Source of the DNA: Candidatus Nitrosopumilus sp.
GTDB lineage: Archaea; Thermoproteota; Nitrososphaeria; Nitrososphaerales; Nitrosopumilaceae
Assembly (NCBI GenBank): GCA_021268355.1
Contig: JAJETY010000009.1
Coordinates: 1-41,754 of the forward strand
Reading direction: 5' to 3'
Length of the DNA: 41,754 nucleotides
This document shows positions 24,996-40,566 of the stretch, in pieces (within the stretch, counting starts at the first letter, position 1; each line of letters starts with the position of its first letter). Under the pieces are notes generated by a model that had not been told where the DNA came from, did no database searches, and saw only the letters and a program-made list of their open reading frames with translations. Position numbers and translations under genes: made by a program.

Positions 24996-25074
24996 ACACT
25001 CATCTGAATTCATAATTAAATCATGTTTTTCATAAAATGGGTGGAAGATAGTGAGTGTCAAACATTTTTGTGAA

Positions 25075-25156
25075 CGCCGGGAAAGGGATTCGAACCCCTG
25101 CACGCTTGCGCGTAGCCGTTTTCGAGACGGCCGCCTTACCACTTGGCTACCCCGAC
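25075..25156 (-). tRNA. tRNA-Ser (anticodon CGA)
   Basis: The reverse strand folds as a class II tRNA of 82 nt without encoded CCA. The acceptor GTCGGGG pairs with TCCCGGC with two G-U pairs, and the discriminator base is G. The D arm is GCC..GGC with AGTGG in the loop. The anticodon stem GCCGT/ACGGC encloses loop CTCGAAA, so the anticodon is CGA, reading UCG. The long variable arm has stem ACGC/GCGT, diagnostic of tRNA-Ser. The T arm is AGGGG-TTCGAAT-CCCTT. There is no intron. It lies between convergent small genes with no adjacent integrase or element. Confidence 0.97.
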
Positions 25157-25196
25157 AATGGATATGAGAACATCTCCATAATAAAGCAAATCTGAA

Positions 25197-38809: not shown

Positions 38810-39234
38810 AAATTTTGCTAAAAAATTTTAGATAAGAATCTATGGTTTATTGTTGACCTTTAAGATAATACTCAAGATAGTGACTGGAGATGCATATGCC
38901 CAAATGAAGTCACTAAAGAAAAGAATGTACTTACAGAATTCCTTTATGGGAAGGTTTTTCATTCCGTGTTTTGCCAACTTGGTTTTGCCTACAAACCTTT
39001 TGACGGCATCAAGACCTGACGAATCTTAAATTTAAGGCATAAATGAGTTGCATTAACCCCACGTGAATGAAAAAAACATCATTTCTTTATCTTATCAAAA
39101 AAACTAGCCCACGGTGAACCCCTTGGATAAAAAGAAAAAGTAATAGCTAAAAAATCCATTATCCCCAATAGGGTGCGATGTACCCTATCCCATTTTAATC
39201 AAAAATGAATTTAATTTCAGATGTTTCCTTATCT
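38810..39234. other. 425-nt region without a supported gene
   Basis: No convincing gene is seen between trmI and the small gene at 39235. A 49-codon frame at 38880-39029 on the forward strand (GTG start) is complete but has no recognisable feature. An imperfect direct repeat CCCACGTGAA/CCCACGGTGAA occurs at about 39058-39067 and 39108-39118. A perfect inverted repeat lies at 39168-39188 and is listed separately. Confidence 0.5.
39168..39188. repeat. 7-bp perfect inverted repeat (possible hairpin or operator)
   Basis: ATAGGGT and ACCCTAT flank a 7-nt spacer (GCGATGT). The arms are perfectly complementary and GC-rich against the AT-rich background. It lies 47 nt beyond the stop of the reverse-strand gene at 39235, so it could mark that transcript's 3' end. 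No U-tract follows, and a protein-binding palindrome is equally possible. Confidence 0.4.
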
Positions 39235-39499: not shown

Positions 39500-39631
39500 A
39501 TGAAAACAGTTATGGATCTTACTGAAATTCATCAAAGAGAAATAGACTCACTTCGTGATGAAAATATAGAATTACGGAAAAAAATTAAAAATCTTGAGGC
39601 TAAAATCAAAGAATTAGAGAAAAAGAATTGA
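39500..39631 (+). CDS. 43-residue coiled-coil microprotein
   Basis: A complete frame from ATG 39500 to TGA 39631. After a short N-terminus the chain is a near-perfect charged coiled coil (DSLRDENIELRKKIKNLEAK, then IKELEKKN) with Leu/Ile at heptad a/d positions, resembling a leucine zipper. Its stop overlaps the TTG start of the C2H2 zinc-finger gene (TTGA). The two could form a dimerising unit encoded as separate chains. The function is unknown. Confidence 0.6.
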   Translation: MKTVMDLTEIHQREIDSLRDENIELRKKIKNLEAKIKELEKKN

Positions 39632-39816
39632 ATTTCAATTGTGTCTTTCCAGAATGTAATTTTAAAGAGAGTAATATCGAAGAGATAGAATTTCTTAAAC
39701 ATTTGAGGGGTGAGCATGAAAATCAATTATTATTAATTTCTCAGAAGGAAGAAATTCCAATTGAGATGGTGGAAATGATAACCATATCAAACTCCAAAGT
39801 ATTCATCAACTCATAA
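39628..39816 (+). CDS. Single C2H2-type zinc-finger-like small protein
   Basis: The 62-residue protein begins with a C2H2-like unit: CVFPEC (residues 4-9), a helix-forming stretch, then HLRGEH. The ligand spacing C-x4-C...H-x4-H is close to classical zinc fingers, although the interval between the pairs is longer than usual. A helical tail follows. The start is TTG 39628, overlapping the stop of the coiled-coil gene, so expression is coupled. DNA binding is possible but unproven. Confidence 0.6.
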   Translation: MNFNCVFPECNFKESNIEEIEFLKHLRGEHENQLLLISQKEEIPIEMVEMITISNSKVFINS

Positions 39817-39883
39817 TTATGCAATGTTGGCATCAGATGAAAATCAAGATCATTTTTAAATATCATTTTGACGTATTATTACT

Positions 39884-39984
39884 AACGAGAAAACCGTTTT
39901 TCTGCGTCGTAGATTAATGGTATGGAAAGCGTCTCATGTTAGGTCAACGTCCTAGTTTAAAACACGCTTTCCGTGTGTCTCGTT
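39884..39984 (+). ncRNA. Candidate structured RNA with alternative pairings
   Basis: About 100 nt can form nested helices. The outer AACGAGA (39884-39890) pairs with TCTCGTT (39978-39984). The 9-bp GGAAAGCGT/ACGCTTTCC pairs 39924-39932 with 39964-39972. An inner stem TTAGG/CCTAG (39939-39943 with 39951-39955) carries a 7-nt loop. A competing 5' hairpin (ACGA-GAAAA with TTTTC..TCGT, 39885-39893 with 39898-39910) uses the same bases as the outer helix, so two folds exclude each other. It lies 65 nt before the ATG at 40049. No known RNA family is recognised, and the strand is inferred. Confidence 0.5.
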
Positions 39985-40048
39985 GTTTTAAAAAACCAGA
40001 GTTACATCACAAATAGTATTTTAATAACTAAAAAAAGAACTATGTGAA

Positions 40049-40390
40049 ATGACAGAATTAAAAGTTCAAGGTTCAGGGGGTTATGTGATTGCAGACCTTA
40101 CTGAAGAACAAGCTAAAAAAGCAGACTTGGGTGTTGGAAAATTATTTTTGGCCCCAATTGGAAAAATTGAGACTGAAAAAATGCACAAGCATTATTGTAA
40201 TAATTGTGAAACAGAATTTGATAATCCGCCAAAAATTCAGTTAGAAGAAAGTCCAAATGAAGAAGTGGCAGATAATTTGATATTAATTGAAAGAGGTCAA
40301 TATGTCTGTGAAAAATGCAATGGCGTAATTGGCGAATATAGGGAATTCCAGAAAAAAGGCGAAGTAGGTAGCGCCAGACCAAGCGCATAA
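40049..40390 (+). CDS. Small protein with zinc-ribbon Cys pairs, unknown function
   Basis: The 113-residue protein opens with VQGSGGYVIADLTEEQAKKA and a strand-rich region (VGKLFLAPIGKIETEK). It then has CNNC (about residues 50-53) and, after an acidic linker, CEKC (about 91-94). The two pairs form one probable zinc ribbon. The C-terminus is basic (REFQKKGEVGSARPSA). No family is recognised. It follows the structured RNA candidate, which could be its leader. Confidence 0.7.
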   Translation: MTELKVQGSGGYVIADLTEEQAKKADLGVGKLFLAPIGKIETEKMHKHYCNNCETEFDNPPKIQLEESPNEEVADNLILIERGQYVCEKCNGVIGEYREFQKKGEVGSARPSA

Positions 40391-40428: not shown

Positions 40429-40566
40429 ATGGCAAATCAAAAATGCGTCTCTTGCGGAATAGGATTTTTCTCACCACACGGTTCAGATAAATGTTCTAGA
40501 TGTGCAGGAGAAGAGTCACAAGGTAGTCATGGACATGACTCTTGCGGTTGTGGACACAGCCACTAA
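40429..40566 (+). CDS. 45-residue Cys/His-rich microprotein
   Basis: A complete frame from ATG 40429 to TAA 40566. CVSCGIGFF (residues 6-14) and CSRC (22-25) form a minimal zinc ribbon. The tail GSHGHDSCGCGHSH adds four His and two Cys, a typical metal-binding end. It may store or deliver a metal ion (Zn, Ni, Cu), which is inference. It lies 38 nt after the preceding ribbon gene and 50 nt before the next, probably in the same transcript. Confidence 0.65.
   Translation: MANQKCVSCGIGFFSPHGSDKCSRCAGEESQGSHGHDSCGCGHSH

Follow-up and report, generated by a model that had tools for sequence, protein, structure and literature searches.

The window, that is, the whole stretch of 41,754 nucleotides analysed here, lies in contig 3 of an archaeal genome of 1.34 Mb. 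Its forward strand carries a predicted small RNA gene of about 105 nt (39882..39989), which we term type 1 and which the covariance model R1, built from 49 copies, matches with 97.8 bits (E 2.5e-23). A promoter precedes it (39848..39875), and the next gene on the same strand, a neighbour only, encodes a zinc-ribbon protein of 113 residues (40049..40390) that matches neither Pfam nor NCBIfam. The G+C content is 41% in 39900-39999, against 24-33% across the preceding 300 bases, and about 64 nt separate the RNA from the zinc-ribbon ATG at 40049; an earlier reading made from the letters of the window (the sequence-only reading) had described both the GC-richer island and this distance correctly.

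A short zinc-finger-like open reading frame (39628-39816, forward strand; CVFPEC...HLRGEH) lies directly upstream of the RNA promoter, is itself preceded by a short coiled-coil-like frame, and also adjoins the RNA in a single-contig genome of 1,645,259 bp. Between the zinc-ribbon gene and the gene that follows it, a small Cys/His-rich protein (MANQKCVSCGIGFFSPHGSDKCSRCAG...CGCGHSH) is encoded at 40429-40566 (forward strand); it is conserved together with both flanking genes in nine loci, and may bind metal. At 38821-38845, before a GCD14-like tRNA methyltransferase gene, stands the palindrome-containing AAAAATTTTAGATAAGAATCTA, which is conserved in many relatives and resembles a promoter or regulator site.

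At minimum energy (-37.0 kcal/mol), 39882-39989 of the forward strand folds into a three-way junction consisting of an outer helix and two arms, P1 and P2. The outer helix joins AACGAGA (39884-39890) to UCUCGUU (39978-39984), and 99% of its cells are paired across 101 copies. The left arm, P1 (39893..39921), pairs 39893-39898 with 39916-39921 and 39901-39905 with 39909-39913, and ends in the conserved tip UCUGC-GUC-GUAGA. The right arm, P2 (39922-39974), is built on a core helix between GGAAAGCGU (39924-39932) and ACGCUUUCC (39964-39972), whose nine base pairs grow to 11 in the minimum-energy fold, and bears a large apical region. Within that region the motif UCAUGUUA (39934..39941), a candidate contact site, is unpaired or weakly paired and is crossed by no conserved helix. 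Both loops are nearly fixed in sequence: the tip UCUGCGU[C/A]GUAGA is found in 88 of 100 type-1 copies, and the exact apical CAUGUUA in 97. The perfect 7-bp and 9-bp helices and the inner stem-loop described in the sequence-only reading are all present, whereas their simple nesting is not, the left arm in its conserved form having gone unmentioned. That observation is partly confirmed: it is real, and is to be redrawn as a three-way junction.

Single folds can mislead, and this general caution is what may be said for a chance fold, or a palindrome acting at the level of DNA with no RNA behind it, an explanation that we regard as scarcely credible. Against it, the 101-nt span 39884-39984 reaches -35.2 kcal/mol (z -5.2), a value equalled by none of 200 dinucleotide shuffles; the opposite strand gives z -3.0. 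When 49 copies are aligned, 93.6% of cells are paired and 13 pairs show changes on both sides; all five covariation measures lie above those of 500 shuffles as well as above slid controls. Because kinship among sequences can inflate such alignment-level counts, 101 copies were realigned from their sequences only, and substitutions were placed on the resulting tree and compared with simulations (n=100) preserving both the tree and the substitution counts. The outer helix showed 5 compensatory double substitutions, P1 16 and P2 8, against simulated maxima of 1, 5 and 2, respectively. A stricter per-pair G-statistic set against a tree null left no single pair significant, as clade-level changes dominate, and ranked real structural pairs among its highest; the structural support thus resides in the event counts per helix. 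The forward strand tolerates G-U pairs, which are common: at many pairs they occur in a large share of copies. Since these would read as A-C mismatches on the other strand, the forward strand is the one that corresponds to the RNA, and this one-sided covariation, together with the orientation of the promoter, also speaks against chance.

The second state advanced in the sequence-only reading, in which two mutually exclusive folds would share the 5' strand of the outer helix, fares differently. The alternative hairpin can be drawn in this one sequence, but in the full-length RNA its fold attains -26.2 rather than -37.0 kcal/mol, and only nascent chains no longer than about 35 nt have it as their optimum. 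Across the 101 copies its helix shows 0 compensatory events and a pair-keeping fraction within the simulated range. A bistable switch as a conserved feature was rejected on these grounds, the lack of compensatory change and a penalty of 10.8 kcal/mol; covariation in relatives speaks for the three-way junction and against the two-state model.

Comparison of the flanks shows that the RNA has a conserved promoter of its own. This comprises a GATCA box (39848-39852), a TATA box TTAAATAT (39856-39863) and a ATTTTGACGTA stretch (39865-39875), and its signature, GATCA..TTAAATAT.ATTTT.ACGTA, stands upstream of nearly every copy at near-fixed spacing. Among the 48 copies with enough flank, and counting from ACGAG, information is high at -37..-33 (GATCA), peaks at the TATA box (-29..-22) and persists in the ATTTT.ACGTA stretch (-20..-10); conservation then drops to background at -9..-3, recovers at the outer helix and stops past TTGTTTT. 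The spacing from TTAAAT to ACGAG is exactly 29 in 40 of these 48. Within the source genome a promoter 20-mer has its sole exact match at the RNA locus and, with three mismatches allowed, as few matches as the reversed control. Extended by ACRAG, the promoter pattern occurs in 64 of 250 family genomes, in nearly every case at a type-1 RNA, while the reversed control finds zero.

The other end is similarly marked. The 3' strand of the outer helix, UCUCGUU, runs into the U-tract GUUUU (39978..39989 in all), a probable 3' end to which the fold, the flank alignment and a terminator scan all point. The scan match at this place ends in CTCGTTGTTT, and no terminator-like site was found nearby other than this G+C-containing stem with CUCGUUGUUU after it. 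We infer from these signals a transcript of about 105 nt with its 5' end at about 39883-39885 and its 3' end in the U-tract at 39986-39989. Peptide coding from the invariant AUG was considered and rejected, as indels do not come in threes and the reading frames from this AUG vary from 2 codons upward; the RNA is therefore non-coding.

The promoter and the probable 3' end of the RNA are its own and independent of its neighbours, as is expected of a trans-acting small RNA. One of the two possibilities offered in the sequence-only reading was a leader in front of the zinc-ribbon gene, of riboregulator or riboswitch-like type, and the RNA does lie on the same strand shortly before that ATG, in an arrangement common to ten loci. 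It is also, like riboswitches, compact, covarying and multi-armed, with conserved loops. Unlike them it is tied to no gene family, has its own promoter and U-tract, and possesses no conserved switching fold: where a leader would invariably sit in the 5' UTR of a single gene family and be co-transcribed with it, we found varying neighbours, some of them convergent, and the alternative pairing is unconserved and energetically inferior, as described above. The gene, for its part, has a TATA-like element, TATTTTAAT (~40017-40025, forward strand), situated between the RNA and the ATG and outside the RNA gene. Most relatives without the RNA at this place keep TATTTTAAT just before the orthologous ATG, from which it follows that the zinc-ribbon gene has its own promoter. 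The gene is present in 19/19 Nitrosopumilus genomes tested, several of which have no RNA in front of it. Because the gene has its own TATA element and exists without the RNA in relatives, the RNA is probably an independent small RNA acting in trans, and not a leader or a bistable switch. A cis-acting leader or riboswitch with two mutually exclusive folds is already largely refuted and appears highly improbable. The earlier interpretation is accordingly supported in part, its independent-RNA half standing on the conserved promoter and the unrelated neighbours elsewhere, its riboswitch and two-state halves falling.

A different 100-nt element precedes the same zinc-ribbon gene family in relatives without a type-1 RNA there (L247:1322-1421, L248:1322-1421, L249:1925-2024 on the reverse strand, and L268:1340-1432). 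Its copies are 90-97% identical, it contains a GTCTCC..GGAGAC hairpin with seven T at the end, and it has no Rfam match; possibly it is another unannotated small RNA.

In a plain DNA search, homologues of the type-1 RNA were found in most of 60 genomes of the same genus (~45 at E < 0.01), and 40 genomes from other families in the order gave no significant match. The model R1 produced strong matches in 66/95 Nitrosopumilus genomes, as well as in one g31 genome, four Nitrosarchaeum (g37) and 12 Nitrosotenuis (g42), each with 1-5 copies, and over 400 genomes drawn from the order its matches were confined to the Nitrosopumilaceae. Among named GTDB genomes, a scan for the exact pattern returned Nitrosopumilus, Nitrosarchaeum, Candidatus Nitrosotenuis chungbukensis and Candidatus Nitrosomarinus. 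One copy, at 630615-630723, lies in the 1,645,259-bp genome mentioned above, which has the size of that of Nitrosopumilus maritimus SCM1. Several near-complete Nitrosopumilus genomes are without type 1, which can therefore not be essential everywhere.

The copies are spread over several neighbourhoods of unrelated genes, and the gene downstream may lie on either strand and is often convergent. The neighbourhood shared by the source contig and the 1,645,259-bp genome accounts for the ten loci already noted. A second, at ~16-18 loci, consists of small genes after an aminoacyl-tRNA synthetase gene, with a convergent isopropylmalate-dehydrogenase-like gene; in others the RNA lies beside a helicase or beside a convergent response regulator (gene names here were read from the sequences). 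Such dispersal may suggest a small mobile or repeated element, a unit of promoter and hairpin-rich RNA transposing without cellular function. The 1-5 copies per genome in different places, the homology that stops between places at the promoter and the U-tract, and the patchy absences would all agree with this. However, the RNA fold is maintained by compensatory evolution, a single copy is all that many genomes contain, and within lineages the RNA stays at orthologous positions. Moreover, no association with transposases was seen and a search of viral contigs, phages and plasmids gave no match to the type-1 RNA. We consider such an element improbable.

The type-1 RNA is an unclassified family of the Nitrosopumilaceae, as judged by comparison with the collections and known classes that follow. 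Rfam 15, at its gathering score, recognised in the source window only a tRNA elsewhere, and at E up to 1 it returned no match for eight homologous type-1 loci; the statement in the sequence-only reading that no known family was recognised thus holds for this release. ARAGORN and Rfam left the RNA unmatched as tRNA or tmRNA, the sole match being a tRNA-Ser at 25074-25157. With archaeal H/ACA and C/D guide RNAs it has in common that these are small, independently transcribed non-coding RNAs (transcription being inferred in our case) with several per genome. It differs in lacking their boxes: in place of an ANA 3' of the closing stem most copies have GUUUU(U/A)A, the ends carry the conserved ACGAG and CUCGU and neither a C box RUGAUGA nor a D box CUGA, and the fold is a three-way junction, not the expected single guide hairpin. 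Archaeal trans-acting regulatory small RNAs resemble it in their own TATA promoter, a length of about 100 nt, a U-tract and a conserved unpaired stretch, but the type-1 RNA is far more rigid, being a fully structured three-way junction with near-invariant loops in every copy.

Another parallel in kind is offered by the stand-alone candidate motifs found by comparative genomics (Weinberg et al. 2010), which are likewise intergenic, covarying, lineage-restricted, without a fixed downstream gene and likely trans-acting, although none matches the RNA in Rfam 15; the paper describing them does not mention Nitrosopumilus (PMC2864571). In the open-access literature we found no published description of the type-1 RNA, and almost nothing on small RNAs of ammonia-oxidising archaea.

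Ammonia-oxidising archaea, the drivers of nitrification, rank with the most abundant cells in the ocean. Their marine and soil members share this well-supported RNA gene family, and since homologues exist in cultured strains, its expression, structure and partners are directly testable.

Weak R1 matches also point to other RNAs, alike in promoter layout and outer stem but with different loops. A scaffold model, R2, places these type-2 RNAs in most Nitrosarchaeum and many Nitrosopumilus genomes, including genomes without type 1. Examples on this three-way-junction scaffold include L164:3511-3644 and L371:608-733 on the forward strand and L370:551-684 and L380:628-726 on the reverse strand. They measure ~100 nt in Nitrosarchaeum and ~133 nt in Nitrosopumilus, and in some genomes (G202, G018, G015, G185) lie close to type 1; none was found in the source genome. 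Their junction is formed by ACGAGG/CCUCGU, a GGAAAA/UUUUCC arm and a CGAA-hairpin-UUCG tip, with 15 pairs showing double changes in alignment A8 (a five-sequence alignment made with MAFFT only, in which the 3' strand was misaligned, was excluded). In Rfam the type-2 loci gave nothing beyond a chance match below threshold. R3, a model built from type 2 only, matches in 71/400 genomes of the order and recovers Nitrosarchaeum and Nitrosotenuis type-1 RNAs from outside its training set at E 1e-8 to 1e-11, so the two types are probably related. When the R1, R2 and R3 searches are combined, type 1 and/or type 2 is found in nearly all high-completeness Nitrosopumilus genomes.

The scaffold common to both types, an ACGAG(G)/(C)CUCGU outer stem and a GGAAAA/UUUUCC arm, invites a wider proposal, which is speculative and in our view rather unlikely. 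Ammonia-oxidising archaea may possess a lineage-specific, modular superfamily of RNAs with a dedicated promoter type, a three-way-junction scaffold and exchangeable loops, of which there would be at least two types. If so, it would constitute a ribonucleoprotein or regulatory system of a new kind, its scaffold recognised by one shared protein and its specificity determined by the loops. Covariance models and a promoter signature are now available for annotation; further gains are a correction of the leader or riboswitch reading and the related second type.

The reading that we prefer, and to which we would assign a probability of roughly 0.65, is that of a stand-alone small RNA gene whose product acts in trans through its fixed loops. 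RNA polymerase would start at the gene's own GATCA/TATA promoter and the transcript would end in the U-tract past the outer helix. The three-way junction would then expose two loops of fixed sequence, UGCGU[C/A]GUA at the P1 tip and UCAUGUUA in the apical region, and with these the RNA would act on a partner encoded at another locus, most likely through base-pairing or through contact with a protein. In one proposal, UCAUGUUA binds the complementary UAACAUGA at start-codon regions; such pairing could cover the start codons themselves.

The fixed loop sequences are as compatible with a protein partner as with an RNA target, and this is the basis of the main rival, an independent gene for a ribonucleoprotein scaffold whose loops and junction are protein-binding sites, with no base-pairing to mRNA. 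It has an appreciable, if minor, share of the probability. The near-invariance of both loops, with no conspicuous complementary target, speaks for it; so do the two types, which have the outer stem, the base of P2 and the promoter layout in common and differ in their loops, as expected if one protein reads the scaffold. Yet the differing loops are contrary to a single loop-binding protein, and the neighbourhoods vary, with no co-localised protein gene.

Searches for targets of the small RNA bear on both readings. In two genomes the apical complement CTAACATGA had 12 and 15 matches, no more than the reversed control, and complementarity between the RNA loops and the rRNA operon yielded nothing convincing. 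The single target common to both genomes, a small conserved protein (PKVPNMRWG), was rejected after comparison of ~65 genomes, the match being driven by protein coding: the codon position is free, the source genome itself carries CCCAACATG, and the picture is the same in genomes that lack the RNA. In 209/250 family genomes a conserved protein of small size (MKDINDIMPKVPNMRWGALMNKAPTS...; L289, L298, L301 and ~60 further loci) was recorded.
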